Shown here in pieces: positions 1,771 to 19,726 of a DNA stretch of 64,000 bases. The DNA lies in contig NZ_FUWS01000007.1 of the NCBI RefSeq assembly GCF_900167435.1, positions 101,522 to 165,521 of the forward strand. Reading direction: 5' to 3'. Every line of letters starts with the position of its first letter. Within the stretch, counting starts at the first letter, position 1. Origin of the DNA: Marinactinospora thermotolerans DSM 45154. Lineage in GTDB: Bacteria > Actinomycetota > Actinomycetes > Streptosporangiales > Streptosporangiaceae. Below the pieces are notes generated by a model, which worked only from the letters and a program-made list of their open reading frames with translations, was not told the origin of the DNA and did no database searches. Both the position numbers and the translations under genes were made by a program.

Positions 1771-2068
1771 CGGACACCCGTCCCCGCTATGGACATGCCG
1801 GAAGGTCCGTTCCGGCCCCCATCCCATGTCCATTACCGGCCATAGGGCAACAAACCGCCCTATTTGGGGTAAGACCCCTCTTGCCTTCCCGGTATCCCAT
1901 GACGCACGGTGGAAAGCCGGTCCCGTCCCTGTCCACAGGGAGCTTTCTCCCTGGCAGGCGGTTTCGAACACTCGTTACGATACGTCAGCGTGGAGTCACC
2001 ACCGTCCCTTAGTGTGAACCATCTCCCAGGACCTCAGCTCAAGCGCTCGACCCCCCAGGAGCCTGCCC
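1771..2068. other. intergenic leader upstream of the Tad block
   Basis: About 300 bases without a convincing gene. TACGAT at 1976-1981 could be a -10 element for the gene at 2069, but no good -35 sits at the right distance. The sequence is less GC-biased than the coding DNA around it. Confidence 0.4.
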
Positions 2069-3142: not shown

Positions 3143-3180
3143 GCCCCTCTTCCCCCGAGCCCATCTAGAAACGGAGCGTC

Positions 3181-3939
3181 ATGAACCCCCGTCAACGACG
3201 CGGCGTCATGCTGATGATCGTCGCCGGGATCGGCGCCATCGCGGTCTTCTTCACCGTCGTCTCCTACGTCAACACGCTGCAGAACGAGATGGGCAGCTAC
3301 CGCACCGCCCTGCGGCTGACCCAGGACGTGCCGCCCTACCAGCCGATCACCGAGGACATGATCGAGGAGTACGAGGTCCCCGCGAAGTTCTTCGACGCCG
3401 ACGTGTTCCTCTCAGACCTCTCCCAGGCCGTCGAGCAACCCGGCCGTCAGGTCGTGTCGGCGACCTTCCTCAACGCGGGATCGCTCCTACAGAAGAGCAT
3501 GGTGATCGCCGCCCCCGAGCTGGAGAACGGCGAACGCGAGATCGCGATCATGATCGACGCGGAGACCGGCGTGGCCGGCAAGGTCGACCGACAGTCCCGG
3601 GTGGACGTCTACGCCGCCTACCAGCCCAACGACCAACAGGCCGCCTGCGCGGTCCGGGTCCTCACCAACGTCGAGGTGCTCGAGGTCGGCGAACTGGGTT
3701 CGGAGATCGACGAGAACACCGGCGCCACCAACGCCGTGGTGCCCGTCACCTTCAGGTTGACCGCCGAACAGACCCTCCAGCTCACCTACGCCGAGGGGTT
3801 CGCCAGCAAGCTGCGGCTGGCCCTGGTCAGCCCCGAAGGCGCCGGCGACCCGGGCGGGCTCGAGTTCTGCAGCTCCGACCAGGCCGATCTCCTGTCCGGC
3901 CAAAACGGTGGGGCCACTCCCGGAAACGGGGAGCAGTAA
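3181..3939 (+). CDS. cpaB: Flp pilus assembly protein CpaB/RcpC
   Basis: 252 residues. An N-terminal membrane helix (about residues 9-30) is followed by a SAF-like domain (about 45-110, around PYQPITEDMI) and the RcpC/CpaB C-terminal domain. In Tad systems this protein sits on the outer face of the membrane as a periplasm-type or wall-facing component. The start ATG at 3181 follows GGAGCG. It is three bases from the next gene, consistent with one operon. Length is normal for actinobacterial CpaB. Confidence 0.88.
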   Translation: MNPRQRRGVMLMIVAGIGAIAVFFTVVSYVNTLQNEMGSYRTALRLTQDVPPYQPITEDMIEEYEVPAKFFDADVFLSDLSQAVEQPGRQVVSATFLNAGSLLQKSMVIAAPELENGEREIAIMIDAETGVAGKVDRQSRVDVYAAYQPNDQQAACAVRVLTNVEVLEVGELGSEIDENTGATNAVVPVTFRLTAEQTLQLTYAEGFASKLRLALVSPEGAGDPGGLEFCSSDQADLLSGQNGGATPGNGEQ

Positions 3940-3942
3940 CCG

Positions 3943-5556
3943 ATGAACTACCAGGTCATGATCGGTGCGCCCTCAGCCGAGCTGGAGACGGCGCTGACCG
4001 CGCGTTTCGAGGAGCTGAGCGAGGCCGAGGTCGTCAGCGTCCACCGCTCCTCCCACGAGGTGGGCGACACCGTCGCCAAGCTTCCCGCTCTCGACGTCGT
4101 CCTGATCCACGAGGACCTCGGCCCCCTGCCCGTCCTCGACCTCATCCGCGACATCTCCCGCAACCACCCCCAGCTCGCGGTGATCCTCGTCGTCAACGAG
4201 GTCGAACCCGACACGTTCACCAACGCCATGGAGGCCGGAGCACGCGCGGTGCTCCCGACCAACGCCACGATCGAACAGCTCAGCGCGCGGGTCACCACGG
4301 CCGCCGAATGGTCACGGACCCTGCGCCGGCACCTGGAGGCCGCCTCGCTGGACCTGCCGGTGTCGGGGCGGCGAGGATCCATCATCACCTTCACCGGGGC
4401 CAAGGGCGGTGTCGGGACCACCACCACCGCCATCCACCTGGCGCGCCTGGCGGCCAAGGCGGGACGGGTGGTCTGCCTGGTCGACCTGGACCTCCAGGCA
4501 GGGGACATCCCCGGATACTTCGACCTGAAACACCGGCGCAGCATCGTCGACCTGGTCGGCGCGGCCGACGACATCAGCGCGGCCATGCTCGCCGACACCC
4601 TCTACGTCCATCCGGACGGTCCGCACATCCTGCTCGCCCCCGACGAGGGGGAGCGCGGCGAGGACGTCACCGCCCGAGGGGCGCGGCAGGTCCTGGGCGC
4701 GCTGCGCTCACGCTATGACCTCGTCATCGTCGACTGCGGGACCACGATGACCGAGGCGACCGCGATGGCGATCGAGCTGTCCGACACCGCCGTGGTCCTG
4801 GTCACCCCCGACCTCCCCGCGCTGCGCGGCGCGCAACGGCTCGTCGCGATGTGGGACCGGTTGCAGATCCGCGACCGCAAGAACGTGACGGCCCTGCTCA
4901 TGCGGCACAGCCGCAAGAACGAGATCCAGCCCGACTTCGCCCGCAAGCTCCTGGGCACCGCCATGCTGCGCACGCCCGTCCCCGCCGCCTACCGGGCGCT
5001 GGAGGAGGCCTCCAACACCGGTGACCCCGCCCGTCTCACCGACGAGTCACTCCTCCGCTCCTTCAGCAGGCTCGCCGGTGAGCTCGGAATGCTCGACACC
5101 CCCGGTGACGACGGGAACGAGTCCACCGAATCCGACCCGGCCCCGGAGACCGTGGGCGGTCCCGCCGCCGTCCCGGCCAAGGGACGGCGCTCCCGCCGCG
5201 ACGACTCCGGCGCGCTGCTCGTGGAGTTCGCCGCGCTGGTCCCCTTCCTCGGCCTGGCCCTCCTGCTGACCTGGCAGGTCATCCTGATCGGCCTCACCGG
5301 CATGTACGCCGGTCACGCCGCCAACGAGGGCGCCCGGCAGGCCGCCATCACCCCCGGCGACGAGGAGGCCATCGTCGAGGAGGCCAAGAAGCGCATCCGC
5401 GCGCCCTGGAACGAAGAGGACACCTTCGCCCTGGAACTCGTCCAGGACGAGGAGGGCACGTTCGTAACGGTCACCATCGCCATGCCCGCGGTGCTCCCCG
5501 GACTCGATACTCCGTGGAACATCAGCGACAGGGCGATGGTCATCCCCGAGAGGTGA
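3943..5556 (+). CDS. cpaE: CpaE/TadZ-type ATPase fused to a TadE-like pseudopilin
   Basis: 537 residues in one uninterrupted frame. Residues 1-130 form a degenerate receiver-like domain. Residues 145-385 form a MinD/ParA-type ATPase with the deviant P-loop typical of TadZ (KGGVGTTTT, 154-162; the second P-loop Lys is Thr) and DLDLQAGD near 181. An acidic linker (386-420) leads into a TadE module: DDSG, then ALLVEF with Gly423 and Glu428 in prepilin-like spacing, a membrane helix to about 450, and a 90-residue beta-rich end. CpaE localises the secretion machine at the cytoplasmic face, whereas TadE is an exported pseudopilin, so joining them is odd. An internal ATG at 5089 could give a separate TadE. 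The next tadE begins four bases later. Confidence 0.88.
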   Translation: MNYQVMIGAPSAELETALTARFEELSEAEVVSVHRSSHEVGDTVAKLPALDVVLIHEDLGPLPVLDLIRDISRNHPQLAVILVVNEVEPDTFTNAMEAGARAVLPTNATIEQLSARVTTAAEWSRTLRRHLEAASLDLPVSGRRGSIITFTGAKGGVGTTTTAIHLARLAAKAGRVVCLVDLDLQAGDIPGYFDLKHRRSIVDLVGAADDISAAMLADTLYVHPDGPHILLAPDEGERGEDVTARGARQVLGALRSRYDLVIVDCGTTMTEATAMAIELSDTAVVLVTPDLPALRGAQRLVAMWDRLQIRDRKNVTALLMRHSRKNEIQPDFARKLLGTAMLRTPVPAAYRALEEASNTGDPARLTDESLLRSFSRLAGELGMLDTPGDDGNESTESDPAPETVGGPAAVPAKGRRSRRDDSGALLVEFAALVPFLGLALLLTWQVILIGLTGMYAGHAANEGARQAAITPGDEEAIVEEAKKRIRAPWNEEDTFALELVQDEEGTFVTVTIAMPAVLPGLDTPWNISDRAMVIPER

Positions 5557-5559
5557 CGC

Positions 5560-5946
5560 ATGGAAGCCAGGCAGGCCCCCCTCCGGCCGCCGCGTGGCCG
5601 TCCCCGGGACGACCGCGGCTCCCAGATCCTGGAGTTCGCCGCCTACTTCCCCTTGTTCCTGATCATGGTCGCCGTGGCCTTGGAGGTGTTCATCTGCTTC
5701 GTCGCCGTGGAACGGGCCGAACACGCCGCCCGGGCCGGAGCCCGGGTCGCCGGCACCCAGGGGCTGACCGGCTCCGTCGACACCGCGCGGCGAGCACTGC
5801 CCGACTGGCTCGACGAGGCCGAGATCACCTCCGGCCCCCGCGACGACGGCGGCTACTACACCGAAGTGCGGGTGGATCTACCGGTCGCCTTCCAGATCGC
5901 CGATCTCAACATCACGATCACCCGCAGAGTCGACATGCCCGTCTGA
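5560..5946 (+). CDS. tadE: TadE-like minor pseudopilin
   Basis: 128 residues. A basic head (RGRPRDDRG) precedes SQILEF, which fits the prepilin pattern of Gly followed by Glu at +5, then a hydrophobic helix of about 20 residues and a beta-rich C-terminal part with VERAEHAARAGAR after the helix, typical of TadE. The product is probably cleaved by a prepilin peptidase and inserted in the membrane as a minor pilus component. The gene starts four bases after the CpaE-TadE fusion, giving two TadE modules in a row. It is on the short side for TadE. Confidence 0.87.
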   Translation: MEARQAPLRPPRGRPRDDRGSQILEFAAYFPLFLIMVAVALEVFICFVAVERAEHAARAGARVAGTQGLTGSVDTARRALPDWLDEAEITSGPRDDGGYYTEVRVDLPVAFQIADLNITITRRVDMPV

Positions 5947-5971
5947 CCCTCTCCCCACGCAGGTAAGGCCC

Positions 5972-7324
5972 ATGGGACTGAAAGACCGTCTCGACGAGGA
6001 CCGCCTCGTCGACCAGCAATCCGACCGCGGCAGCGTCGCCCATTGGCGGCAACGCCTGCTCAGCGAGATCAACCTCGACGACCTCGCCATGCTCACCCTG
6101 GAGCAGCGCCGGATCCGCTTGGAGAAGGTCGTCGGACACATCATCTCCCGCGAAGGACCGGTCCTGTCCGACCGCGAGCGCGGCAACATGATCCGCCGCG
6201 TCGTGGACGAGGCCCTCGGGCTCGGCGTCCTCGAACCCCTGCTCGCCGACGAGAGCATCACCGAGATCATGGTGAACGGCCCCGACAACGTCTACATCGA
6301 ACGCCGGGGACGGGTCGAGCGCATCGAGACCACCTTCGCCAGCGAGGAACAGCTCTACCAGACCATCGACCGGATCGTCTCCCAGGTGAACCGCCGCGTG
6401 GACGAGTCCAGCCCGATGGTCGACGCCCGCCTCCCCACCGGGGAGCGCGTCAACGTCATCATCCCGCCCCTGTCGCTGACCGGTCCCGTCATCACCATCC
6501 GGCGGTTCCCCAAGCCCTTCACCGTCGAGCAGCTCATCGCAAAGGGCAGCCTCGACGAGGCCACCGGCGTCCTCCTCGCCTCCCTGGTGCGGGCCCGGTT
6601 CAACGTGATCGTCTCGGGTGGTACCGGCACCGGTAAGACGACGTTCCTCAACGCGCTGTCGGCGTTCGTCCCCTCGGGGGAACGCATCATCACCATCGAG
6701 GACTCCGCCGAACTCCAGCTCCAGCAGGAACACGTCATCCGGCTGGAGTCCCGCCCGCCCAACATCGAGGGCGCCGGTTCCATCAGCATCCGCGATCTCG
6801 TCCGCAACTCGCTGCGCATGCGTCCCGACCGCATCATCGTCGGCGAGGTCCGCGGCGCCGAGACCCTCGACATGTTGCAGGCCATGAACACCGGCCACGA
6901 CGGCTCCCTGGCCACCCTGCACGCGAACTCCGCGGACGACGCCGTACACCGGCTCCTCACCCTGGCCTCGATGAGCGAGGTGCGGGTCCCCTTCGAGGCC
7001 ATCCGCGACCAGATCAACGCGGCGATCGACGTGATCGTGCACCTGAGCCGCTACCCCGACGGCAGCCGACGGGTCTCCGAGGTCTCGGTGGTGGCCTCGA
7101 CCCGGCGTGAGGAATTCCGCCTGGAGCCCCTCCTGCGTTTCGAGCCCCACCGGATGGACGTGGAGCAGAAGGTCACCGGCGAGTTCCACCGCTTCCCGCT
7201 CCCCCGCCACATCGCCGCGCGCGTCTACAACGCGGGCGAGACGGTCCCCGCCTCCTTCGGCGTCTCCTCCGCCACGCCTTCCAACGGCACCCCCTTCTCC
7301 TACTCCCTCGGAGGGCGGCTGTGA
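5972..7324 (+). CDS. cpaF: CpaF/TadA secretion ATPase
   Basis: 450 residues, the hexameric AAA-type ATPase that powers Tad pilus assembly from the cytoplasmic side. The Walker A motif GGTGTGKT lies at 216-223 and the Walker B region is RIIVGEVRG (287-295). A TGHDGSLATLHAN stretch (307-319) is characteristic of the GspE/CpaF family. The N-terminal 90 residues match the CpaF helical domain, and ITEIMVNGPDNVYIERRG is the usual signature near residue 100. The stop codon overlaps the GTG of tadB by four bases, implying translational coupling. Confidence 0.95.
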   Translation: MGLKDRLDEDRLVDQQSDRGSVAHWRQRLLSEINLDDLAMLTLEQRRIRLEKVVGHIISREGPVLSDRERGNMIRRVVDEALGLGVLEPLLADESITEIMVNGPDNVYIERRGRVERIETTFASEEQLYQTIDRIVSQVNRRVDESSPMVDARLPTGERVNVIIPPLSLTGPVITIRRFPKPFTVEQLIAKGSLDEATGVLLASLVRARFNVIVSGGTGTGKTTFLNALSAFVPSGERIITIEDSAELQLQQEHVIRLESRPPNIEGAGSISIRDLVRNSLRMRPDRIIVGEVRGAETLDMLQAMNTGHDGSLATLHANSADDAVHRLLTLASMSEVRVPFEAIRDQINAAIDVIVHLSRYPDGSRRVSEVSVVASTRREEFRLEPLLRFEPHRMDVEQKVTGEFHRFPLPRHIAARVYNAGETVPASFGVSSATPSNGTPFSYSLGGRL

Positions 7325-8250
7325 ACCACACCCTGATCATCCTGGCCGGTACCGCGGCCACGCTCTCCGTCCTGGTGTGGGGCATCGTGGTGTTCGCCGA
7401 CGGACTCGCCCAGCGCCGGCTGCTCGCCTCGCGGAGCGTCCTGGAGGAGGTCGAACGGCGGGCCAACCACCCCATGGCCCGACTGGACGTGGTGCTGCGC
7501 CGCACCGACCTGGGAAAGGCCGTGGAACGACGCCTCGCCCGCTCGGGGGTGCGGGTCAAGGTCTCCACGTTCCTGCTGTCGCTGACCGTGGCCTGTGTGC
7601 TCGCCATCGTGTTCGTCTGGCAGATCCTCGCGCCGCTCCTCGGCCTGCTCTCCGCCGGGCTCGTCGGTTTCCTCTTCTACGCCTACCTGCGCCGGCAGGA
7701 GGAACGGCGCCGCGAGGCGTTCACCGCCCAACTCCCCGAACTCGCCCGGGTGCTCTCCAACGCCACCTCGGCCGGACTCGCCCTGCCCACCGCCATCGAC
7801 ATGGCCGCCGACGAGCTCGACGATCCGGCCGGCTCGGAACTGCGCAGGGCGGCCGAGTCCATCAAGCTCGGCCAGTCCTTCGAGGCCGCCATCGAGGAGA
7901 TGCGCCGGCGGATGCCCTCACGCGAGATCGGCGTGCTGATCTCGACCCTGCTGGTCTCCGCCCGTTCGGGAGGCGCGCTGGTCACCGCGCTGCGCAACAT
8001 CTCCGAGACCCTGGAAAGCCGCAAGGAGACCCGGCGGGAGGTCAAGACCATCCTGGGCGAGACCACCAGCACCGCCTGGGCGCTGCTCGCCATGGGGATC
8101 GGCTCCCTGTTCCTCCTCAACCTCACGATGCCCGGAACGGTGGCGCGCATGACCGAGAGCCCGGCCGGGCTGATCATCCTCTGCGTCTCCCTGTCGCTGT
8201 TCACCACCGGTTTCGTCCTCATCCGCCGGATGGCCCGAATCGACTTTTGA
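7321..8250 (+). CDS. tadB: TadB, inner-membrane platform protein
   Basis: 309 residues beginning at a GTG that overlaps the cpaF stop. One helix lies at the N terminus, two near residues 85-125 and two at the C terminus. Between them is a cytoplasmic GspF/TadB domain (about 130-265) with the family features LPELARVLSNATSAG and RSGGALVTAL. It forms the membrane platform with TadC on which CpaF acts. Length and topology are ordinary for actinobacterial TadB. Confidence 0.92.
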   Translation: MNHTLIILAGTAATLSVLVWGIVVFADGLAQRRLLASRSVLEEVERRANHPMARLDVVLRRTDLGKAVERRLARSGVRVKVSTFLLSLTVACVLAIVFVWQILAPLLGLLSAGLVGFLFYAYLRRQEERRREAFTAQLPELARVLSNATSAGLALPTAIDMAADELDDPAGSELRRAAESIKLGQSFEAAIEEMRRRMPSREIGVLISTLLVSARSGGALVTALRNISETLESRKETRREVKTILGETTSTAWALLAMGIGSLFLLNLTMPGTVARMTESPAGLIILCVSLSLFTTGFVLIRRMARIDF

Positions 8251-8282
8251 CCCCGTTCCGAGCCCCCTGAGAGCACACCACC

Positions 8283-9191
8283 ATGAACATCACCCTCACC
8301 TTCCCCCTGATCCTGTTGCTCGGGCTCGCCGGGGCGCTGTGCGTCGTCCTGGCCGTGTGGGGCTACCATCTGGTCACCCGCAAGAGCGACATCGCGGCCG
8401 ACCTCGTCAGCGCGCCCCCGAGAAAACGGGCAGAGGGCACCTTCATCCTCCACCGCATCACCGAACTGGCCGGACGACCGTTCGGGGCGGCCCTGCTGGA
8501 GTGGCTGGGACCGGAACGCCAGGCCGCCATCCAGCTCCGCATCGACGCCGCGGGCCGGCCGGAGAACCTCACCGTCGCGCGCTACGTGCGCCGCAAGGCC
8601 GGCGAGGTCATCCTCTACGGCGGCGTCGCCCTGCTCATGCTGCTCAACGGTTCGCCGTTCTTCGCCCTGCTCGTGCTGACCTTCGTCGCCCTGACCGACC
8701 TCTCCCTGTACACCAGCGCGCAGCAGCGCCAGGAGAAGATCCAAAAGCAGCTTCCGGACTTCCTCGACGTCCTCGCCGTGACCGTCGGGTCCGGGCTGGC
8801 CTTCCGCCAGGCCCTGGGACGGGTGGCCGACTCCATGCCGGGGGTGCTCGCCGACGAGTTCCAGATCGCGCTCCGCCAGATGGAACTGGGCACCAGTCGC
8901 AGGGAGGCGTTCGGGGCGCTGCGCAAGCGCAACTCCAACGAGTCGCTGGGCAGGTTCATCTCCGCCCTGCAGCAGGCCGAGGAGCTCGGCGCCCCCCTCT
9001 CCCAGTCGCTCCAGACGATCAGCATGGACATGCGCCGCGAGGACGCCCAGTACCTGCGCCGCAAAGCCCAGCAGCTCAACCCGAGGGTCACCGCGGTCAC
9101 GGCCGCCACCATGCTGCCGGGCCTGCTGTTGCTGATCGGCGGCGGGCTGTTCATCGGCTCCGAGGTCGACCTGACCAGCATCCTCGGGTGA
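8283..9191 (+). CDS. tadC: TadC, inner-membrane platform protein
   Basis: 302 residues, with the same fold family as TadB. A helix at residues 5-25, a helix pair around 110-140, a GspF-type cytoplasmic domain (LPDFLDVLAVTVGSGLAFRQAL near 160) and two C-terminal helices are visible. It follows tadB by 32 bases and is presumed to form the heteromeric platform with it. The ATG at 8283 lies directly after GAGAGCACACC, a weak ribosome site. Confidence 0.92.
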   Translation: MNITLTFPLILLLGLAGALCVVLAVWGYHLVTRKSDIAADLVSAPPRKRAEGTFILHRITELAGRPFGAALLEWLGPERQAAIQLRIDAAGRPENLTVARYVRRKAGEVILYGGVALLMLLNGSPFFALLVLTFVALTDLSLYTSAQQRQEKIQKQLPDFLDVLAVTVGSGLAFRQALGRVADSMPGVLADEFQIALRQMELGTSRREAFGALRKRNSNESLGRFISALQQAEELGAPLSQSLQTISMDMRREDAQYLRRKAQQLNPRVTAVTAATMLPGLLLLIGGGLFIGSEVDLTSILG

Positions 9192-9195
9192 CCCC

Positions 9196-10458
9196 ATGGA
9201 CGGCGGTGGGGAGATGCTGACGACGCCACGCCTCGCCCGGCTGGCGCGACTCCTGATCCAGATACGCACCATGCTCATCGCGGTGGCCCTGCTCCTGCTC
9301 CCCGACGAGCGGCTGTCTCCGGCCACCGTCGTGCTGATGGTGCTCTACGCCCTGTTGTCCCTGATGCTGGGGCGCTACTGGGAACGGTTCACCCCCTACT
9401 TGCTGCGGCACCCGCTGCTCATCACAGCGGACGTCTTCATCGCGGTGTCGATCCTCGCCGTGGACGGCCCCTCGGGGGCCTTCTTCATCGCCACCGTCCT
9501 GACCAGCACCGCCGCCGGTGTGCTGTTCGGCCCTCGCGGCATCGCCGCCGTCACCGCCTTCCAGATCCTCGGCTACACCGCCGCCCTGCTCTCCCACACC
9601 TCCCTCATCACCGCTCCCGGTACGGGCGAGCTTCTCCGTTTCCAGTTCCTCGTCGTCCACCCGCTGCTGTATCCGGTGGCCGGATACAGCGGATGGCGTC
9701 TGCGCCAGATCTTCACCGAACTCGCCCTGGAACAGGAACGCCGCAGAGCCGCGGAGCTGGCCGCCGCGGCGGCCGAGGAACGCGCCCGGTTGGCCCGCGA
9801 CATGCACGACTCGGTGGCCAAGACCCTGCGCGGCGCCGCCATGGCCGCGCAGGCCCTCCCCCTGTGGATGAAGAAGGACCCCGAACGCGCCGAGGCCGCC
9901 GCCGCGCAGGTGGTGGTCGCCGCGGAGACCGCCGCCCAGGAGGCGCGGAACCTCATCGCCGACCTCCGCGACGAAGCGGCCGGGATGCCCTTCACCGACG
10001 CGGTCGAAACGGTCCTCGACACGTGGTCCGGTCAGACCGGGATCGCCACCGACTTAAGCGTCCCCCGGTATCCCCCCTCCCTCCTGGTCACCGCGCGGCA
10101 CGAGGCACTGGCCGTCCTCCGGGAAGCCCTCACCAACATCGAGCGGCACGCGTGGGCGACTCTCGTCACCGTCGAATTGACCGTCCAGCACGCGGATCAC
10201 CGGGAGGGGACCTCCGACCCCGGATACCTGGTCATGCACGTCACCGACGACGGGAGGGGGTTCCAGGCCCCCATCCCCCACGAGCATGACGCCCCCTCCG
10301 GCCCTCCCGGGCACTACGGCCTGGTCGGCATGGTCGAACGCGCACGGCGCGCCTGCGGAGACCTGACCATCGAATCGACGCCGGGAAAGGGAACCCGGCT
10401 CACGCTCCGAGTCCCCTTGGCCTCCGCCACCCCCACCCCTGAGAGGACGGTGCGATGA
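9196..10458 (+). CDS. membrane sensor histidine kinase, NarL/DesK type
   Basis: 420 residues. Five or six hydrophobic segments occupy residues 20-165 as a membrane sensor domain without a recognised ligand motif. A HisKA_3 dimerisation helix carries the phospho-acceptor in ARDMHDS (His204). The HATPase domain shows TNIERHA, VTDDGRGF and GLVGMVERA. The gene starts five bases after tadC, and its stop overlaps the ATG of the response regulator by four bases. It is embedded in the Tad block and probably controls it. A TTA leucine codon lies at 10054, a rare codon in such DNA. The signal is unknown. Confidence 0.92.
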   Translation: MDGGGEMLTTPRLARLARLLIQIRTMLIAVALLLLPDERLSPATVVLMVLYALLSLMLGRYWERFTPYLLRHPLLITADVFIAVSILAVDGPSGAFFIATVLTSTAAGVLFGPRGIAAVTAFQILGYTAALLSHTSLITAPGTGELLRFQFLVVHPLLYPVAGYSGWRLRQIFTELALEQERRRAAELAAAAAEERARLARDMHDSVAKTLRGAAMAAQALPLWMKKDPERAEAAAAQVVVAAETAAQEARNLIADLRDEAAGMPFTDAVETVLDTWSGQTGIATDLSVPRYPPSLLVTARHEALAVLREALTNIERHAWATLVTVELTVQHADHREGTSDPGYLVMHVTDDGRGFQAPIPHEHDAPSGPPGHYGLVGMVERARRACGDLTIESTPGKGTRLTLRVPLASATPTPERTVR

Positions 10459-11192
10459 CCCCCTCCCCTCCCCCCATCACGGTTCTGGCCGTCGACGACA
10501 ACATCGTCGTGCGCGCGGGCCTGATCTCCCTTCTGGAGACGGCCGATGACCTCGTCGTCGTCGGAGAGGCCGGTGACGGCGCCGAAGCCATCCAGCGGGC
10601 GCGCGAGCTGCGCCCCGACGTCGCGCTGTTGGACGTGCGCATGCCCGTCCGCGACGGCGTCGACACGGTCGAGGAGCTCAGCGAACTGTGCCGGGTCATC
10701 ATGCTGACCCACACCGAGGACCCCGCGACCATCCACACCGCGTTACAACGAGGAGCCCGCGGATACCTGGTACACGGCCATTTCACCCTGCCGGAACTCA
10801 GCCGCGCCCTACGCGAGGTGGTTCGAGGGACGGGAAGCCCTCTCTCCCCCGTCGCCGCGACGGCCGTTCTCGACGCCATGCGCGCGGCCCCGGAATCCCG
10901 ATCGGAGCGACCCTCGGCGCAGGATCTGGGGTTGACCGAACGCGAGGCGCAGATCCTCGCCTGCGCCGCGCGCGGCCTCTCCAATTCCGCGATCGCCCAC
11001 GAGCTGTTCCTTTCCGAAAAGACGGTGAAGAACCACATCAACCGCATTTTCCGCAAGCTCCGAGTGGGGACACGAGCCGCGGCCATCGCCCGCTGGAACG
11101 GCCACCCCGTCCCAGAAGGGCATCTCCCCGGCGTCCCGGTGCCCACCACCGGTCCCAGAAGGAGCCGCTGGGGAACGGGGTCCCGGCCGTGA
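10455..11192 (+). CDS. NarL/LuxR-type response regulator
   Basis: 245 residues. The receiver domain (residues 7-125) has the acidic pair Asp14/Asp15, phospho-acceptor Asp60 (ALLDVRMP) and Thr85. The conserved switch lysine of the GARGYLLK motif is His107 here (GARGYLVH). The LuxR helix-turn-helix domain (about 155-215) shows LTEREAQIL and SEKTVKNHINRIFRKL. A poorly conserved tail of about 25 residues follows. It is coupled to the kinase by an ATGA overlap. A TTA codon is present at 10743. It probably binds promoters in this block, perhaps that of flp, which starts a new transcription unit 109 bases downstream. Confidence 0.92.
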   Translation: MTPSPPPITVLAVDDNIVVRAGLISLLETADDLVVVGEAGDGAEAIQRARELRPDVALLDVRMPVRDGVDTVEELSELCRVIMLTHTEDPATIHTALQRGARGYLVHGHFTLPELSRALREVVRGTGSPLSPVAATAVLDAMRAAPESRSERPSAQDLGLTEREAQILACAARGLSNSAIAHELFLSEKTVKNHINRIFRKLRVGTRAAAIARWNGHPVPEGHLPGVPVPTTGPRRSRWGTGSRP

Positions 11193-11568: not shown

Positions 11569-12276
11569 ATGAAACTCTCACCAAGGCTCTCATCAGCCGA
11601 CGAGCAGGGACAGGCTAGCCTGTTCCTGCTCGTCGGCTTGACCCTGTCACTTCTCGCCCTTTCCCTTCTTTACGTCAGGCTAGGTAACGCAAATGATTTA
11701 CGCTCCCAGGCACAGTCTGCAGCTGATGCTGCCGCCCTGGCAGCTGTAGGAGCCATCCGAGACGAAGTTGCCCGCGATCTAGCCGAGCACAGAATTGTTT
11801 TCCACTCACTTCACAAACCAGCAGCCGCCCGTACCGCAGCCGAAAAATACGCTCGCGCCAATGGCGCAATATTAAGCGAAATTCGAGCAAGTGACAATAA
11901 CAACGGACAGACAGGGAACATCATACGAGTAGAGATTAGAGGAGCAAACTGCCAACGAGAACTAGAGGATGATCGAAGCCGACATTGGTCGGAGATCCTT
12001 TGCACAGGGGAGGAGGATGAAGATACCCCCGTCAACATAGGAAACGCGGCAGCCGTTGCCGAGATCGTAATGCCTAACTGCAATTACACCTTCGGGGAAG
12101 AATATCAGATAATTGGCGTAAATTGTGACGGAACCCCTATTTCTTACGGAGACTTTACCTCAGCCCAACAGGCCATCACCACTCGATTGACCGACAGAGA
12201 AGGGCGATGGCTATATCGTCCACTCGAGTCAATCAATGAAGATGATGAAGAAATCGAAGAAGAGCGCGTCCTGTAA
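11569..12276 (+). CDS. TadG-like / Rv3654c-type exported pilus-locus protein
   Basis: 235 residues. After DEQG comes QASLFLLVGLTLSLLALSLL, a prepilin-like junction lacking the usual Glu, and then LRSQAQSAADAAALAAVGA, the TadG/TadE-like pattern just after the membrane helix. The remainder is polar with four cysteines and is probably outside the cell. The DNA is clearly AT-richer than the upstream tad genes and uses TTA (11698, 11872) and ATA codons. No strong ribosome site precedes the ATG. The role is inferred from position and N-terminal pattern. Confidence 0.75.
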   Translation: MKLSPRLSSADEQGQASLFLLVGLTLSLLALSLLYVRLGNANDLRSQAQSAADAAALAAVGAIRDEVARDLAEHRIVFHSLHKPAAARTAAEKYARANGAILSEIRASDNNNGQTGNIIRVEIRGANCQRELEDDRSRHWSEILCTGEEDEDTPVNIGNAAAVAEIVMPNCNYTFGEEYQIIGVNCDGTPISYGDFTSAQQAITTRLTDREGRWLYRPLESINEDDEEIEEERVL

Positions 12277-12310
12277 AATTCCCCTCCCAGAAGGTGACGA
12301 CTTAGCGAAA

Positions 12311-13369
12311 ATGGATCCCAACCCGCTCTCCTCTCGCTCAGCACTCCTATGCATTCCGATCATTGCAGTTACACTATTAACCACTTCCTGCGTAGGTCAG
12401 CCAGATAGTGATCCTTCTACCGCATCCACCAGTAACGCAGATTCCGAAGAGCAAGGAGCCCCTCCCGGCCCGACCGAGAGCGACAGAAATAATAATCCTA
12501 TTGCGACCTCGCTTTCCAGTGCAACCCCACAAGGAAAAGACATCCAACTCGACATCTTTTCATTAGAGAGGCACAGCAAAGAAGTCCTAGTTCTAAATAT
12601 GAGAATCACCAACAAGGGAGATGAAGCTGCGCAGGTCCTCTACACACTCTCGGAGCTTGGCGGGGAAGCTGCATCTCCAGATGGGGTTTCACTCATAGAC
12701 ATGAGAGAAAACAAACGTTATATGCCCCTAAAGTTGACCGACGGAAAAACCTGTCATTGCTCAAACTGGAGCGGAGAAGAAAATCTAGCGCCCGGCGCAA
12801 GCATCAACCTATGGGCAGCTTTCCCCTCTCCACCCGGGGATGTCAAGGAAGTTGCGGTAGCCACTCCAGTGACTCCCGATTTTCTAGATATTCCAATAAC
12901 CGATGCAATCTCCCCGAACCCAGAGATATCCGATGCCCCTGTCTCCGAAGCTAGGATCCTGGACCTAAGAACCTTTCAGGACGACACCAGCAATGGCACT
13001 TCCCGCTCCGAATCGGGCGACGAAACAACCCTCATACTGTCTTCAGACGTACTATTCAATATAAACGAATCGGAGCTCACTAGCAAGGCAAACGAGACCC
13101 TCGCGAAAGTAGCCGGGGAGATCGACTCCTCCTCCACCGAAAACGTGAAAATTGACGGATACACCGATAACACTGGCAGCGATTCCATCAATAATCCACT
13201 TTCAGAAGAACGAGCCAGGGCAGTAGAAGCCCGACTAAAAGAACTCGTCTCGCGCGAAGGCCTCACATACACAGTTTCCGGACACGGCTCTAATGACCCA
13301 ATCGGAGACAACCAAACAGAAGAGGGACGAGAGAAGAACCGTCGCGTAACCGTAACTTTTTCCAAATAA
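12311..13369 (+). CDS. lipoprotein with OmpA-type peptidoglycan-binding domain
   Basis: 352 residues from the ATG at 12311; an in-frame ATG at 12236 would overlap the previous gene and lacks a ribosome site. The signal peptide ends in LLTTSC, a lipobox with Cys about residue 28. A Ser/Glu-rich linker is followed by a domain (about 75-210) with GVSLID and a C-x-C motif (TCHCS) that recurs in the next gene. The C-terminal 110 residues form an OmpA-like domain (GYTDNTGSD, LSEERARAVEARL, NRRVTVTF) expected to bind peptidoglycan. It could anchor the pilus to the wall. Base composition is AT-rich (27 of 60 GC in one line counted), with TTA at 12377. Confidence 0.8.
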   Translation: MDPNPLSSRSALLCIPIIAVTLLTTSCVGQPDSDPSTASTSNADSEEQGAPPGPTESDRNNNPIATSLSSATPQGKDIQLDIFSLERHSKEVLVLNMRITNKGDEAAQVLYTLSELGGEAASPDGVSLIDMRENKRYMPLKLTDGKTCHCSNWSGEENLAPGASINLWAAFPSPPGDVKEVAVATPVTPDFLDIPITDAISPNPEISDAPVSEARILDLRTFQDDTSNGTSRSESGDETTLILSSDVLFNINESELTSKANETLAKVAGEIDSSSTENVKIDGYTDNTGSDSINNPLSEERARAVEARLKELVSREGLTYTVSGHGSNDPIGDNQTEEGREKNRRVTVTFSK

Positions 13370-13377
13370 GGGGATTC

Positions 13378-13947
13378 ATGTACCCTAAAATTTCCTATAG
13401 AGTCATCTCTCTAGCAATCACTTTCACCTTAACTCTATCTTTTTCCACATCCATGTCACTCGCAGACAGAGAGGGAGGTTCTACACAAGAAGAGCCGGGA
13501 ATCGCACCGGGAGATTCTCTTCCAAAACTATCCACAGGGAGCGCCAGCAGAACAGAATGGAGAGGAGCAACTGTAGAGATAAACGAGATCAAGAGATCTT
13601 CGACAGGGAGTTACGCTTCACTCACCTGGACCCTAATAAATGAAAGTGACTCCACTATAAATTTGGGGGAAATGAGGAATAGAACCTACTACTACAAAGG
13701 ATCACATGATGGTAGCGGAGTTGTATTAATCGACGAAGAGAATTCCCTCCGACACAATCCATTTATAGACTCTCAGGGAAAATGTCTTTGCGCCGGTTCC
13801 GAGCATGCTCCTTTGAAGTTCGAACTGCTCACCGAGCCTGGTGAATCAACGACCTACTGGGCCTCTTACCAGCTTTCCGAGGACACCGAGACCGTGACCG
13901 TCGAGATTCCAGGTTTTCTTCCCATCAAGGATGTACCGGTCGGCTGA
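13378..13947 (+). CDS. secreted protein sharing a domain with the OmpA lipoprotein
   Basis: 189 residues with a classical signal peptide (basic start, hydrophobic residues about 8-26, cleavage probably after SMSLA). The mature part aligns by eye with the middle domain of the preceding lipoprotein: GVVLID against GVSLID, a C-x-C (KCLCA against TCHCS), EPGESTTYWASY against APGASINLWAAF, and a closing LPIKDVPV against LDIPI. It lacks the OmpA domain. AAGGGG lies five bases before the ATG. It belongs to the AT-rich islet and has TTA at 13726. The function is unknown; a partner or duplicate of the lipoprotein domain is likely. Confidence 0.75.
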   Translation: MYPKISYRVISLAITFTLTLSFSTSMSLADREGGSTQEEPGIAPGDSLPKLSTGSASRTEWRGATVEINEIKRSSTGSYASLTWTLINESDSTINLGEMRNRTYYYKGSHDGSGVVLIDEENSLRHNPFIDSQGKCLCAGSEHAPLKFELLTEPGESTTYWASYQLSEDTETVTVEIPGFLPIKDVPVG

Positions 13948-13977: not shown

Positions 13978-14628
13978 GTGGCGAGATTCGGTGTCCGCTT
14001 CTCTCCGGAAAAACCGCGTGACGACCGCGGTGCGTACTTCGTCGAGACAGGGGTCCTGGTCACCCTCGCCGCCGGGATCATCATCAGCGTGGCGCAGTCC
14101 CCCATCGGCGATCAGTTCCACGACAGTGTCCGCGAGATGGTGTGCCTGGTCGAGGGGCCCGAGTGCGGGGGCGAGACCTGGACCGAGCACGACCGTCCCG
14201 AAGAGCCGGACATCTACCAGTACTCTCCCGCCACGGTCTGGAACGGCGAGATCAAAGGGGAGGGGGACGCCCGCGTCGCCATCCAGTTCGCCTTGTCGCA
14301 GCAGGGTGACCCCTATGTCTGGGGCGGGACCGGACCGGACGGCTGGGACTGTTCGGGCCTCCTGCAGGCCGCTTGGCGCGCGGCCGGCGTCGAGATCCCC
14401 CGCACCACCTGGCCTCAGCACGCCGCCCTCCCCCCGGTCTCCATGGCCGATCTACAACCGGGGGACCTGATCTTCTTCCAGACGATTCCCGGCCCGCCCC
14501 CCACCCACGTCGGGATGTACATCGGCGACGGAATGATGGTGCACGCGGGCAACCCGGTACAGGTGGTCCCGTTCAACGACTACTGGAAGTCCCGTTGGGT
14601 CGGCGCGGGACGGGTGCCCCAGAAGTGA
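13978..14628 (+). CDS. prepilin-headed NlpC/P60 peptidoglycan hydrolase
   Basis: 216 residues from a GTG with AAGGAG six bases upstream. The head resembles Flp pilin: DDRG followed by AYFVE (Gly18, Glu23 at +5), a hydrophobic helix (24-40) and a C-x6-C (Cys56, Cys63). After a linker, residues 95-215 form an NlpC/P60 domain with Cys125 (GWDCSGLLQ), His177 (THVGMYIG) and His189 (MVHAGN), so the catalytic residues are present. Such enzymes cleave peptide bonds in cell-wall stem peptides. GC content returns to normal here. The same head module occurs in the gene at 15364. Placement implies export or anchoring through the Tad pathway rather than Sec. Confidence 0.85.
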   Translation: MARFGVRFSPEKPRDDRGAYFVETGVLVTLAAGIIISVAQSPIGDQFHDSVREMVCLVEGPECGGETWTEHDRPEEPDIYQYSPATVWNGEIKGEGDARVAIQFALSQQGDPYVWGGTGPDGWDCSGLLQAAWRAAGVEIPRTTWPQHAALPPVSMADLQPGDLIFFQTIPGPPPTHVGMYIGDGMMVHAGNPVQVVPFNDYWKSRWVGAGRVPQK

Positions 14629-14633
14629 GCCCC

Positions 14634-14723
14634 CGTATCGGCCGGGACAGGGTCTTCTCCCTCACTCCAGCGGCCCAGACCGTGGTGACCGTGGCCTGAG
14701 GAAGCCCCTGCCCGGCCGATACG
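14634..14723. repeat. 13-bp perfect inverted repeat with 64-base spacer
   Basis: CGTATCGGCCGGG at 14634-14646 is repeated in reverse complement at 14711-14723, starting six bases after the NlpC/P60 stop. The arms are flanked by further complementary C/G runs. It could form a long-range RNA stem or be a protein site; it is too widely spaced to be a simple terminator. Confidence 0.6.
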
Positions 14724-15363
14724 CCCCGGCCGCCTTCTCCGCCGAGCGCCCACCCGGCGCTGCCAGGCCGTGCCCGGGACGGTGAGCGAAGGCAGACCGT
14801 GGGCACGGCGTCCGCGGCCGCAACGTTCGAGTAGCTGTGCGGTCCGGCGCCCTCCTCGGCGGGGACGCCCCGTCTCCGCGCTCAGGACCCCATGCCGCAG
14901 TGCCCACGGGCAGCGGCCTCCCAGTGGGAACGTGGGACAAGATCGAGGGGACGTTCCGCGACGGCCCGGACCTGCTCATGGCGACCGGAGACCGCCCCGG
15001 ACAGCACCCGGCCCTGGCCCGGCGGCCCAGGCACCGAGACTGCGGCGTCGGGCGAACCGGTGGGCCGCGACCAGAACGGCGGGAGCGGGACGAAGCGATC
15101 GCGGTCGACGGACATCCCCACGTCGCGACCACCGCACCGCGCCCGCGCTCGGCCGGCGCCCCCAACGGCCGGCGCCGCCGGTCGACCCCCGCCGTTCCAC
15201 CCGGCTCCGACCGCAGCGTCCCAGACACCCTTTCTAGGGTCCTTGGACCTATTTCGCGGCGGTTGCGATTGATCCCGCGGACTCTCGTCCGCACGACGCC
15301 TCCTTCCTAGGATCACGCTGATCCCGCAATGCTCCACCGCGCCCACTCCGGTCTGGGGTTCCC
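14724..15363. other. 640-base gap without a recognisable gene
   Basis: Open frames here are Arg/Pro-rich and resemble nothing I know, so I regard the stretch as non-coding. TAGGAT at 15308-15313, 50 bases before the gene at 15364, could be a -10 element, but no -35 sits at a normal distance. Start and end are the limits of the adjoining features. Confidence 0.5.
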
Positions 15364-16737
15364 ATGTCCCCTTCGCCCCCCTCCCCCTTTTTTCCCCTGC
15401 GGCCACGCGACCGTTCCGACCGAGGCGGTGGTCTCCTCGAATACGCCGCCCTGGTCGGACTGGCCGCCGCCGTACTGGCGGTACTGGTGATCGGTCTCCC
15501 CCGGACCTCGTTGCCGGAACGGATCGAGCAGGTCATCTGCGCGATCTTCGGGAGTGACTGCGACGTCCCGCCACCGGTGGCGGAGGAGGACTACGAGCCC
15601 GCGCAGTGCCTGGTCTCGCAGGAGCACGAGGTGTCCGGCATGAGCTTCACCGTGGTGGTGACCTTCGGCGAGGAGGTCTCCTACCTGACCAAGCACTACT
15701 CCGACGGCCGGACCCACCTGACCGTCGTGGACACCGCGAAGCTGGAGGCCTCGCTCGGGCTGGGAGCCGGGGTGGGGGTGGGCAGGGCGCTGGAGCTGGG
15801 CGGCGACGTCTCCCTCACCGGGGCGCTGTCGGTCGCCAACGGCAGCACCTGGGTCTTCGACTCCGCGGAGGAGGCCACGGCGTTTCGCGACCTGATCGAC
15901 GAGCACGAGCTGTACGAGTATCAGCTCCAGCACAACCCGATCGGCACCTGGCTGTTCGGGGACGAGCCCGATCCGATCCGCGATCCCGACATCACGCGGG
16001 TGTCGGGCAGGGCCGAACTCGAGGCGTCGGCGTCGCTCGGCGGCGGACTCGGCAGCGGTCCCGGGGACGGCGGCGGGCGGTCCGATTCGCCCACGGCGGA
16101 GGAGAGACCGGAGTGGAGTGTCTCCCCGCGTCTACGGGCCGAGGGCGCGGTCGGGGTCACCAGCGTGCTCAGCAGGGAGACCGACGGCCGTGACGGTTCC
16201 ACCAGCACGGTCTACGAGCTGGGCGGGACGGCCTCGATCGGCGCGGACTGGGTCGTCGGCGACTGGACGCAAAGCCCGGGAACCAGTGGTTCGCTCAGCA
16301 TCAAGGAGAACGCGCGGGGCGAGATCGTCTCGATCGCGCTGACCCGCACGACACGGGGTGCCGACGGCCCCGAAGTCGTCACGACCGAGCTGGATGTCGA
16401 GGACGCGGAGGAGCGGGCGATCGTCGAGGAGTGGCTCGGCGTGTTCTGGGACGACCAGGTGCTCCCGTTGACCTGGGACGACATGGCACCGACGGAGCTG
16501 GTGTCCGACCCGAGTCCCATGGACCGCCTGCTGTTCGAGGAGGGGCGCACCAGCAGCGTCTCCTACGGTGAGACGAGCGACGTCCAGAAGGTGGGGGTCA
16601 GCGGCAAGCTGGGGGTGGCCCTGGGGATCGGGGCGACCTGGGGAGATGAGAGGCTCGACGTCACCGAGGCCCGCTACCTCGGCGCCCCCGACGGGACCAG
16701 CCGCGACTATGTTGCCTGGGAGGGATGTTCCCGATGA
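15364..16737 (+). CDS. prepilin-headed large exported protein of unknown function
   Basis: 457 residues. The head is Flp-like: SDRG (Gly21), GGLLEY with Glu26 at +5, a hydrophobic helix to about 45, then C-x6-C (Cys59, Cys66), as in the NlpC/P60 protein. The remaining 390 residues contain no known domain. They alternate polar and small or hydrophobic residues in Gly-rich stretches (LGLGAGVGVGRAL, GKLGVALGIGATW), suggesting long beta strands, with a Gly/Ser linker near 225-240. Further cysteines are near 79 and at the C terminus (Cys455). The stop overlaps the ATG of the lipoprotein gene. It may be a pilus-tip, adhesin or surface-layer type cargo; that is inference. Confidence 0.78.
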   Translation: MSPSPPSPFFPLRPRDRSDRGGGLLEYAALVGLAAAVLAVLVIGLPRTSLPERIEQVICAIFGSDCDVPPPVAEEDYEPAQCLVSQEHEVSGMSFTVVVTFGEEVSYLTKHYSDGRTHLTVVDTAKLEASLGLGAGVGVGRALELGGDVSLTGALSVANGSTWVFDSAEEATAFRDLIDEHELYEYQLQHNPIGTWLFGDEPDPIRDPDITRVSGRAELEASASLGGGLGSGPGDGGGRSDSPTAEERPEWSVSPRLRAEGAVGVTSVLSRETDGRDGSTSTVYELGGTASIGADWVVGDWTQSPGTSGSLSIKENARGEIVSIALTRTTRGADGPEVVTTELDVEDAEERAIVEEWLGVFWDDQVLPLTWDDMAPTELVSDPSPMDRLLFEEGRTSSVSYGETSDVQKVGVSGKLGVALGIGATWGDERLDVTEARYLGAPDGTSRDYVAWEGCSR

Positions 16738-17339
16738 GAACACGATGGCCCCGACGCCGGGGACGGCACCCGGTCGACCTGTTCCGCGTCGCCCGCCGAA
16801 CCGCCTGTCTGGGGTTGACCGCGGGCTTGGCGCTCACGGCCTGTTCGGGAGCCCCAGGGCATGGTCCCGCGCCGCCGGAGGGCTTCACCGAGGTGCGGGC
16901 CGGCGGACTGGCGTACGGCGTCCCCGCCGGCTGGGTGGCGGTGGAACCGCCCTCCGAACGCGCGGAGGCCTGGGAGGGCCTGCACGAGCTGCGCGACGGT
17001 GACAGGCCGGTCGCCGAGGTGGGGGTGATCACGGCGTTCGGAGACGTCGCGGATGCCCGCGAGCTCGCGTTCGAGTCCCTGTCGTTGGTGCGGTTCGAGA
17101 CGCGGGCCGCCCCTCCCCAGCGTGATCCCGGGTTCGAGGTCCCCGGAGCGGCCGACTCCGAGCGCGGCGACTACCACTACGAACATCCCGACGGCAGGTC
17201 GGGCCAGGTAAGGGGGGTCGACATCGCGGTGGTCCTGGAGGGCGGGGACGGCGTGGTGCTGCGCTTGACCGGGCTGACCGACCACCTGGGCGAGGAGGAG
17301 CTGGAGGAGATCGTGTCGTCCGTTCGCGTTCCCGGGTGA
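16734..17339 (+). CDS. lipoprotein of unknown function
   Basis: 201 residues if translation begins at the ATG (16734) that overlaps the upstream stop. The N terminus is very basic for about 25 residues, followed by a hydrophobic segment ending in the lipobox LTAC near residue 38. The mature part (GFTEVRAGGLAYGVPAGW onward) resembles the LpqN/PsbP-like style of actinobacterial lipoproteins, with a repeated pattern of short strands, but I cannot name the family with certainty. Coupling to the prepilin-headed gene suggests the two products work together on the outer face of the membrane. Confidence 0.75.
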   Translation: MRTRWPRRRGRHPVDLFRVARRTACLGLTAGLALTACSGAPGHGPAPPEGFTEVRAGGLAYGVPAGWVAVEPPSERAEAWEGLHELRDGDRPVAEVGVITAFGDVADARELAFESLSLVRFETRAAPPQRDPGFEVPGAADSERGDYHYEHPDGRSGQVRGVDIAVVLEGGDGVVLRLTGLTDHLGEEELEEIVSSVRVPG

Positions 17340-18589: not shown

Positions 18590-19726
18590 GTGTCCTCCTT
18601 CCCCGCTCCCCCGCCTGTTCCGCGATCCGAGGGTCCCTCCCCCCACGCCGACGTTCCCGAGGCCTCCCCGGGAGGAGCGGGAGACGTGGGGGCGCCGGAC
18701 CGCCCGGCCCTGCCCGCCGGTTTCGACGTCCCGCCCTCGGGTGGCGGCGTGCCGGCCGCGCCCCCGCCCGCCGCACATCGGGCCCCCGCCCCGACCGGGT
18801 GGGCCCGTGACGACGAGTTGTCCTCGACAGCCCTGCTGCGGGATGGCCGGCCCCCTCCGCCGGGAGGTTGGAGGCGCGCCCTGTTCACCTTGACCGGAGG
18901 ACTGTTGAACCCTGGCGAGTCGCGGGACGAGCTGCGCCGGCGCGAGTTCCGGAATCGGGCGCGTACGCCGGCGGATCGGGGGCATCACCGCGTCGCGGTG
19001 CTGGGGATCAACGGTGGTGAGGGGCGCGCCGCGACCGCGGTGGGGCTCGGTTCGGCACTGGCGGAGGGGCGCGGCGACCGCGTCATAGCCCTGGACGCCG
19101 ACCCCGGTCGGGGCGCCCTCGCCCGGCACGCCTCCGCGCGCCCGCCCCGGGAACGGACGGTACGGGACCTGCTGGCGGCCGGGGACACGTTGAAGCGCTA
19201 CGCCGACGTGCGGTCCTACACCGGGCAGCTGCGGTCCCGCCTGGAGCTTTTGGCCTGCGCCCCGCTGCCCGTGGGGGAGGCGTTCACCGCCCGGGAGTAC
19301 CGCGATCTCGCGGCGGTCGCCGAACGCTTCTACTCGGTGTGCGTCATCGACTGCGACGCCGACCTCCCGCGTCCCCTGCTGGAGGAGGTCCTGTCGTCGG
19401 CCGACCAGATCGTGCTGGTGACGCCGCCGTCGCCGGAGGGGGTGCGCGGGGTGACGGGGGCGTTGGACCGGCTGAGCGGTCAGGGGCACGACGTCCTTGC
19501 GCGTGGCGCGGTCGTGGCGGTCTGCGCCGCCGGAGGGCGCGGGGAGCCGGGGTCGGACCGCGCCGCTGCGGGGTTCGCGCTCCGTTGCCGGTCCGTCGTG
19601 ACGATCCCCCATGACGCCGGTCTCGCGGCGGGGGCCGCCGTGGAGCCGGCCGTGTTGCGCCCGGTCACCCGTCGGGCCTACCTCCGGCTCGCGGTGGAGG
19701 TCGCCTCCGGTTTCGCGGCGGGCTGA
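18590..19726 (+). CDS. MinD/ParA-like protein with degenerate P-loop
   Basis: 378 residues from a GTG with CAGGAAG ten bases upstream. The first 95 residues are Pro/Ala-rich and disordered. Residues 120-375 follow the MinD/ParA fold: the P-loop position reads GINGGEGRAATAVGLG, where the Lys-Thr of the usual GGxGKTT is Arg-Ala, and the A-prime motif is VIALDADPGRG. CVIDCDADL and IVLVTPP follow at the expected places. Proline-rich MinD-like proteins of this shape accompany type VII secretion and other envelope systems, but none is nearby. Nucleotide hydrolysis is doubtful with this P-loop. Confidence 0.75.
   Translation: MSSFPAPPPVPRSEGPSPHADVPEASPGGAGDVGAPDRPALPAGFDVPPSGGGVPAAPPPAAHRAPAPTGWARDDELSSTALLRDGRPPPPGGWRRALFTLTGGLLNPGESRDELRRREFRNRARTPADRGHHRVAVLGINGGEGRAATAVGLGSALAEGRGDRVIALDADPGRGALARHASARPPRERTVRDLLAAGDTLKRYADVRSYTGQLRSRLELLACAPLPVGEAFTAREYRDLAAVAERFYSVCVIDCDADLPRPLLEEVLSSADQIVLVTPPSPEGVRGVTGALDRLSGQGHDVLARGAVVAVCAAGGRGEPGSDRAAAGFALRCRSVVTIPHDAGLAAGAAVEPAVLRPVTRRAYLRLAVEVASGFAAG

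Follow-up and report, generated by a model that had tools for sequence, protein, structure and literature searches.

Type IV filaments are built from subunits that are inserted by Sec, cleaved by prepilin peptidase and recruited in a Glu5-dependent manner. Modular type IV pilins, exemplified by PilB and PilC of S. sanguinis, combine a class III head with a grafted non-pilin module, and many such architectures have been described, including predicted peptidase modules of the S74 and M26 types (Raynaud et al. 2021, PMC8179133). In the Myxococcus Kil system, Tad minor pilins with variable C-terminal domains and disulfides provide interchangeable tips and are tied to prey killing; the authors suggested that TadG-type proteins encoded in other Tad loci may likewise form adaptable tips (Herrou et al. 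2025, PMC12075869). These are the closest known concepts for the two proteins described here, and polymorphic toxin systems (Zhang et al. 2012, PMC3482391) are the closest for other cargo found behind the same kind of head.

We analyzed a 64,000-nucleotide stretch of the Marinactinospora thermotolerans DSM 45154 genome (hereafter, the window), in which two proteins encoded with a Tad machine carry a prepilin head on non-pilin cargo. The likeness to modular pilins lies in the head bearing such a module. However, the survey in PMC8179133 was based on IPR012902 pilins and its text is silent on Tad and hydrolase, whereas the window proteins have a Flp/Tad-type head, and a single operon slot that swaps three peptidoglycan-hydrolase folds is a further feature that sets them apart. 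The trait shared with Tad tip minor pilins (KilL/M/N, TadE/F/G) is being encoded with the Tad machine, which applies to the hydrolase class and, as an enrichment that is not exclusive, to proteins with large cargo. In contrast to the Gram-negative Kil system, with its KilL/M/N trimers and putative prey-recognition domains, we find, in monoderm actinobacteria, single proteins whose enzyme or toxin part can be recognised; the main text of PMC12075869 contains neither the word peptidoglycan nor the word hydrolase. Searches of the open-access literature found no description of a Tad-linked peptidoglycan-hydrolase pilin or of a prepilin-headed polymorphic toxin. What appears to be new, judging from the sequences, is the pairing, in monoderms, of Flp-type heads with modules that are real enzymes or toxins.

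Two proteins of a tad locus share a prepilin head

The two genes lie downstream of the following Tad genes of the window:

3181..9191, + strand: Tad machine, comprising CpaB/RcpC, a CpaE-TadE fusion, TadF, TadA, TadB and TadC (ORFs, domain searches)
9196..11192, + strand: histidine kinase and response regulator (ORFs), kept in most relatives and absent in loci L073 and L076
11302..11526, + strand: Flp major pilin candidate (domain search, head scan)
11569..12276, + strand: TadE/G-like protein (PF13400, 5e-8)
12236..13369, + strand: OmpA-domain lipoprotein-like operon protein (PF00691, 1.1e-15), adjoining the hydrolase slot in relatives
13378..13947, + strand: g13378, a conserved small secreted protein immediately 5' of the hydrolase slot

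The genome encodes a single prepilin peptidase with an intact GxGD-type motif and three Tad-type ATPases, so that the machine serving the two proteins is not fixed. At 3943-5556 of the window the CpaE/TadZ-type ATPase is in frame with a TadE-like pseudopilin, a fusion common among relatives; in locus L154 the ATPase and the TadE-like part are two separate genes (1946-3199 and 3196-3591). The TadG, OmpA and g13378 genes of the window (11569-13947) have 47-52% G+C within a 70% G+C region, and the dip of OmpA and g13378 is seen again in seven related loci (0.52-0.64 vs 0.62-0.72 locus-wide).

The proteins under study and their parts are as follows (a slash marks the predicted cut):

13978..14628, + strand: 216-aa NlpC/P60 hydrolase with a Flp-type prepilin head (ORF, head scan, PF00877)
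13978..14217, + strand: prepilin head of the NlpC protein, with a leader ending in DDRG, a Glu5 helix, a Cys38/Cys45 loop and a conserved ETWxExxRPEEP linker (alignment, class-wide search)
14305..14613, + strand: NlpC/P60 catalytic domain of the 216-aa protein (Pfam, residues 110-212)
15364..16737, + strand: 457-aa prepilin-headed predicted barrel protein of a family without a name (ORF, relatives, alignment, AF2 model)
15364..15570, + strand: prepilin head of the 457-aa protein (DRG/GGLLEY, Cys38/Cys45; head scan, profile search)

A head scan of the locus, which also picks up the Flp and TadF prepilins, reads PRDDRG/AYFVETGVLV... in the 216-aa protein and DRSDRG/GGLLEYAALV... in the 457-aa protein. 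Counted from the predicted cut, both proteins have Glu at +5 and Cys at +38 and +45, the cysteines being residues 56/63 and 59/66, respectively. The original prediction, made from the DNA alone, had claimed precisely such a shared head (DRG-x4-E, a Flp-like helix and C-x6-C). Indeed, both ORFs were found where it placed them. When the whole genome was searched in six frames with a profile made from the heads of other proteins, leaving out that of the NlpC protein, the NlpC head was recovered at E=6e-7. The two heads thus resemble each other through either homology or strong constraint. The same profile searches ruled out a chance origin. The heads differ in that the 457-aa protein has a Flp-type Glu-Tyr and the NlpC protein a TadE-like Glu followed by a residue other than Tyr; the cysteine spacing is nearly fixed in the hydrolase class and ranges from about x6 to x14 in the 457-aa class.

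Both proteins present the features of Flp/type IVb prepilins, namely a short charged leader ending in Gly, Glu at +5 and a hydrophobic helix. The classical small pilin body is absent; the head is followed by cargo of ~140 residues in the 216-aa protein and ~390 residues in the 457-aa protein, which makes them modular rather than classical prepilins. In agreement with the definition of modular pilins, the pilin head is joined to modules not specific to pilus biology (PF00877, PF01551, SLT).

The gene for the 216-aa protein has a GTG start preceded by an SD-like AAGGAG. Its product was expected to be an NlpC/P60 hydrolase with its catalytic residues, and residues 110-212 match PF00877 at 2.8e-26 (92 bits against a Pfam cut-off of 23) with the Cys-His-His pattern intact. 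The best NCBIfam match of the domain is RipC, at 8.9e-31 but far below the membership cut-off of that model. The hydrolase domain is like that of RipC-type and other NlpC/P60 endopeptidases, but here a prepilin head replaces the usual secretion signal and partner domains. The PDB holds no sequence relative for the hydrolase head or for the 457-aa cargo.

One operon slot exchanges three peptidoglycan-hydrolase folds

We took a census of heads by combining profile searches with fetched genome stretches. Of 101 family genomes, 13, the window's genome included, encode a full-length head-NlpC protein, and strong matches to a head profile (E at most 5e-17) were found in 15 of 297 class genomes, all from the same family. 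Glu5, both Cys, Trp68 and Arg-Pro-x-Glu-Pro are invariant across the 13 NlpC-slot heads. Named relatives with the slot include Thermobifida cellulosilytica, Actinorugispora endophytica, Marinitenerispora, Streptomonospora and many Nocardiopsis. Most fetched loci share, with local variations, the gene order CpaB-CpaE/TadE-TadF-TadA-TadB-TadC-kinase-regulator-Flp-TadG-OmpA-g13378-hydrolase, in which the hydrolase gene is the last of the conserved tad operon. The NlpC-type head is tied to tad operons, as had been supposed: the OmpA/g13378 neighbours are kept in 42 of 43 stretches (duplicates counted), and TadA-C are visible on 28. A scatter of hydrolase heads over the genomes was considered and rejected, as the slot stays within the tad operon; heads of this class do not lie mostly outside tad loci.

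The cargo of the slot varies. An M23 domain (PF01551) stands behind the identical head type in two genomes (2e-27 and 6e-30), and an SLT-like/lysozyme-like domain behind the same head and in the same slot in other relatives; EGPEC and ETWxExxRPEEP of the head are retained with these cargoes too. An NCBIfam aggregation-promoting-factor model matches five members of a mixed set that contains some SLT-type proteins. Altogether, a peptidoglycan-hydrolase fold (NlpC/P60, M23 or SLT/lysozyme-like) terminates 39 of the 39 distinct head proteins sampled. Catalytic residues are present in all NlpC (15/15) and M23 (2/2) head proteins, and the SLT catalytic Glu (LWxxESxW) is retained in 9 proteins and lost in 13. 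In a tree built from the neighbouring OmpA and g13378 proteins, the 13 Glu-less proteins form one Nocardiopsis clade, while the NlpC loci are scattered and at least three label changes are required by branches with good support, which argues that cargo was exchanged while operon and head stayed. In Nocardiopsis loci including L147-L153 the SLT module reads LWxxxSxW and is otherwise conserved, a probable pseudoenzyme.

The convergence of the slot on peptidoglycan is the strongest functional clue, and the swap among three unrelated peptidoglycan-hydrolase folds supports a wall-related role. Since the catalytic Glu is lost in the Nocardiopsis clade, the SLT module there can at most bind and cannot simply cut. 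What the lineages have in common may be that the module binds or anchors to the wall, which most of them would also cut. The suggestion that the hydrolase opens the wall for the pilus is kept as one reading among several: the three-fold swap fits its wall-related part, and the Glu-less module speaks against simple cutting.

A predicted barrel protein and its lipoprotein neighbour

The second headed protein adds the following features:

15610..16728, + strand: predicted barrel region between invariant Cys82 and Cys455 (AF2 model, structure alignment, family alignment)
16725..17339, + strand: lipoprotein gene overlapping the 3' end of the 457-aa gene, predicted PsbP/Mog1-like fold (neighbour survey, alignment, model)
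18590..19726, + strand: MinD-like ATPase, whose gene immediately precedes that of the 457-aa orthologue in Thermobifida-like relatives

Pfam, NCBIfam and PADLOC provided no name or domain for the 457-aa cargo. Of 101 family genomes, 26 encode relatives, in many cases as paralogues and in tandem arrays, and the wider family extends to other families of the class, beside tad genes. Among 48 aligned members, G21 is conserved in 47, E26 in 41, C59 in 47 and C66, C82 and C455 in all 48; Cys82 and Cys455 are thus two further invariant cysteines beyond the head pair, to which the original prediction had not drawn attention, and 36 of the 48 members have exactly four Cys. The four conserved cysteines would fit an oxidising location outside the cell. 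Head position 5 is Gln, Asp or Gly in some paralogues, Gln being found in 457-type paralogues of loci L047, L063, L064 and L082.

The AF2 model of the 457-aa protein shows a long-stranded barrel-like sheet (pLDDT 80, pTM 0.73). Foldseek puts FadL first with TM-scores of only 0.1-0.25, so the barrel assignment depends on the AF2 model together with a second structure alignment, in which membrane barrels matched with Z about 10-13 and rmsd about 2.5-5 Å over 150-239 residues at 4-13% identity. Strand alternation is mildly above that of shuffled sequences, 44 of 2000 shuffles reaching the same value. The predicted arrangement is similar to that of the transmembrane beta-barrels EspP, NalP, CymA, KdgM and OmpG, from which the 457-aa module differs in having no sequence relationship to them, a monoderm host, a prepilin head and a cysteine staple. 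In the model, C82 sits just before the first strand and C455 just after the last long strand, the positions expected if a C82-C455 disulfide closes the predicted barrel.

Homologous lipoprotein genes adjoin many 457-aa relatives across families, and the lipobox Cys is the sole invariant column of their alignment; the closest relatives of the window's 457-aa gene have no adjacent lipoprotein gene. The lipoprotein model (pLDDT 88) adopts a PsbP/Mog1 fold that matches PsbP, Apa, the immunity protein Tsi3 and the effector chaperone SciW. On this basis the lipoprotein may be an immunity protein or a chaperone for the 457-aa protein. The earlier label of a large surface protein fits the 457-aa protein less well than that of a barrel, predicted to be stapled by disulfides and partnered by a lipoprotein.

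The 457-aa protein could also be a structural or adhesive part of the surface that the lipoprotein helps to assemble, and no effector. A long-stranded barrel with stapling cysteines, as modelled, would suit such a part, PsbP/Mog1-like partners can be chaperones, as in the case of SciW, and 457-type genes frequently adjoin tad genes. Nevertheless, tandem paralogue arrays and about 20 head-bearing matches in single genomes would be unusual for a structural component, and we consider this reading somewhat unlikely.

The same kind of head on toxins and other enzymes

The head had been proposed as a carrier of non-pilin domains, and profile searches uncovered far wider reuse than was then supposed. 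Outside the hydrolase and 457-aa families, PT-HINT was found in 26 of 74 head-bearing proteins, and further cargo includes calpain-like, GDSL, ADP-ribosyltransferase, deaminase, colicin D, Tox-REase-3/5, Ntox, RNase A, alpha/beta-hydrolase and M4 (thermolysin-like protease) domains. Imm52-like genes, scoring below the Pfam cut-off, follow Tox-REase-5 headed proteins. The headed toxins share with the polymorphic toxin systems of PMC3482391 tips of the PT-HINT, Tox-REase, Ntox and deaminase kinds as well as immunity genes next to them; unlike here, pilin or prepilin is not mentioned in the part of that article considered.

The window's genome has two more prepilin-headed proteins, both PT-HINT toxins on other contigs (L086 7643-9451 and L165 6321-8165), the former having a tip of the RNase A type and a CdiI_2 immunity gene downstream. 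Several toxins (L068 8496-10592, L155 4004-6322, L156, L157) have a multi-helix membrane domain N-terminal to the prepilin head, which is then internal, at about residue 150-180; in the L155-L157 type a conserved Met stands just before it. A standalone multi-helix membrane domain (L148 18375-18782) adjoins a headed toxin. GDSL-type esterases with prepilin heads are encoded at L161 12031-13125, adjoining 457-type paralogues and a tad locus, and at L137 604-1698. Two head-bearing proteins match the PADLOC candidate defence model PDC-M17A.

We measured distances to the main tadA in 20 genomes, counting a head in a frame of >300 aa as large cargo. Of 91 large-cargo heads, 36 are found no more than 50 kb from the main tadA, where 1.5 would be expected, and 55 lie >50 kb away or on another contig; for heads in frames of 150-300 aa, 16 of 19 are within 50 kb. 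Large-cargo heads are thus strongly enriched near tadA, but the concern that such heads might occur mostly outside tad loci is half borne out.

The heads might mark antagonism cargo, with Tad pili carrying the hydrolase and the barrel onto neighbouring cells, the barrel being membrane-damaging and the lipoprotein its immunity protein. Consistent with this, the same kind of head occurs on PT-HINT, ADP-ribosyltransferase, deaminase, colicin D, Tox-REase-3/5, Ntox and RNase A proteins, CdiI_2 and Imm52-like genes adjoin some of them, 457-type paralogues form tandem arrays, and the lipoprotein fold matches Tsi3 and SciW. Yet no immunity-like gene was found beside the NlpC protein, domain searches revealed no toxin domain signature in the 457-aa family, whose C-terminal Cys and flanks are conserved and not hypervariable, the PsbP fold includes non-immunity proteins too, and close 457-aa relatives lack the lipoprotein, all of which makes this proposal doubtful. 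It is improbable that the head serves only as an N-terminal anchor for modules working at the membrane independently of Tad: although many large-cargo heads lie far from tad genes and Glu5 is missing in some 457-family paralogues, Gly-1 and Glu5 are retained in >90% of a very divergent head set, a Glu inside the hydrophobic stretch is unnecessary for a plain anchor, and the hydrolase head is bound to the tad operon.

Discussion

We regard the 216-aa and 457-aa proteins as probable modular Flp-type minor pilins, in which a class III prepilin head bears a module that is folded outside the cytoplasm. The computations show the homology of the heads, the conservation of the operon, the swapping of domains, conserved cysteines and predicted folds; cleavage, Tad dependence, location and activity of both proteins we infer, as we do every step of the mechanism that goes beyond head homology. 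Sec would insert the prepilin head of both proteins, the genome's single prepilin peptidase would cut after DRG, and Glu5 would bring the mature protein to the Tad platform, with the module held outside the cell at the membrane or at the growing pilus tip. The NlpC module would act on the cell's own peptidoglycan at the site of the Tad machine or at the pilus tip. There it would most likely loosen the wall or bind to it and so let the fibre through, in a role comparable to making a wall gap or to a drill bit. An own-wall role is favoured for the NlpC protein because it has no immunity-like neighbour gene; as a point against, the Glu-less SLT modules suggest that cutting is not needed in the Nocardiopsis clade. 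The 457-aa module would form a disulfide-closed barrel and work together with the lipoprotein, be it as a component resembling an effector or as a protein of the cell surface.

More broadly, and only tentatively, actinobacterial Tad systems might be a general effector route, the Flp-type head being a tag for the export and display of polymorphic toxins (accompanied by immunity genes), of proteases and esterases, of peptidoglycan hydrolases and of a family of pore-like barrels, which would amount to a Gram-positive contact weapon and wall-remodelling machine on a pilus.

These observations address how a pilus passes through the thick monoderm wall and which roles Tad pili have in actinobacteria apart from adhesion and DNA uptake. 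A direct genetic handle on these questions is offered by a wall hydrolase that is made as a pilus subunit, with three folds swapped in one operon. Polymorphic toxins with prepilin heads would represent an additional secretion route, one unnamed in the part of the toxin-trafficking survey PMC3482391 covered here. Reuse of the head on wall enzymes and toxins suggests that the Tad pathway may carry working cargo and serve for more than fibre building.
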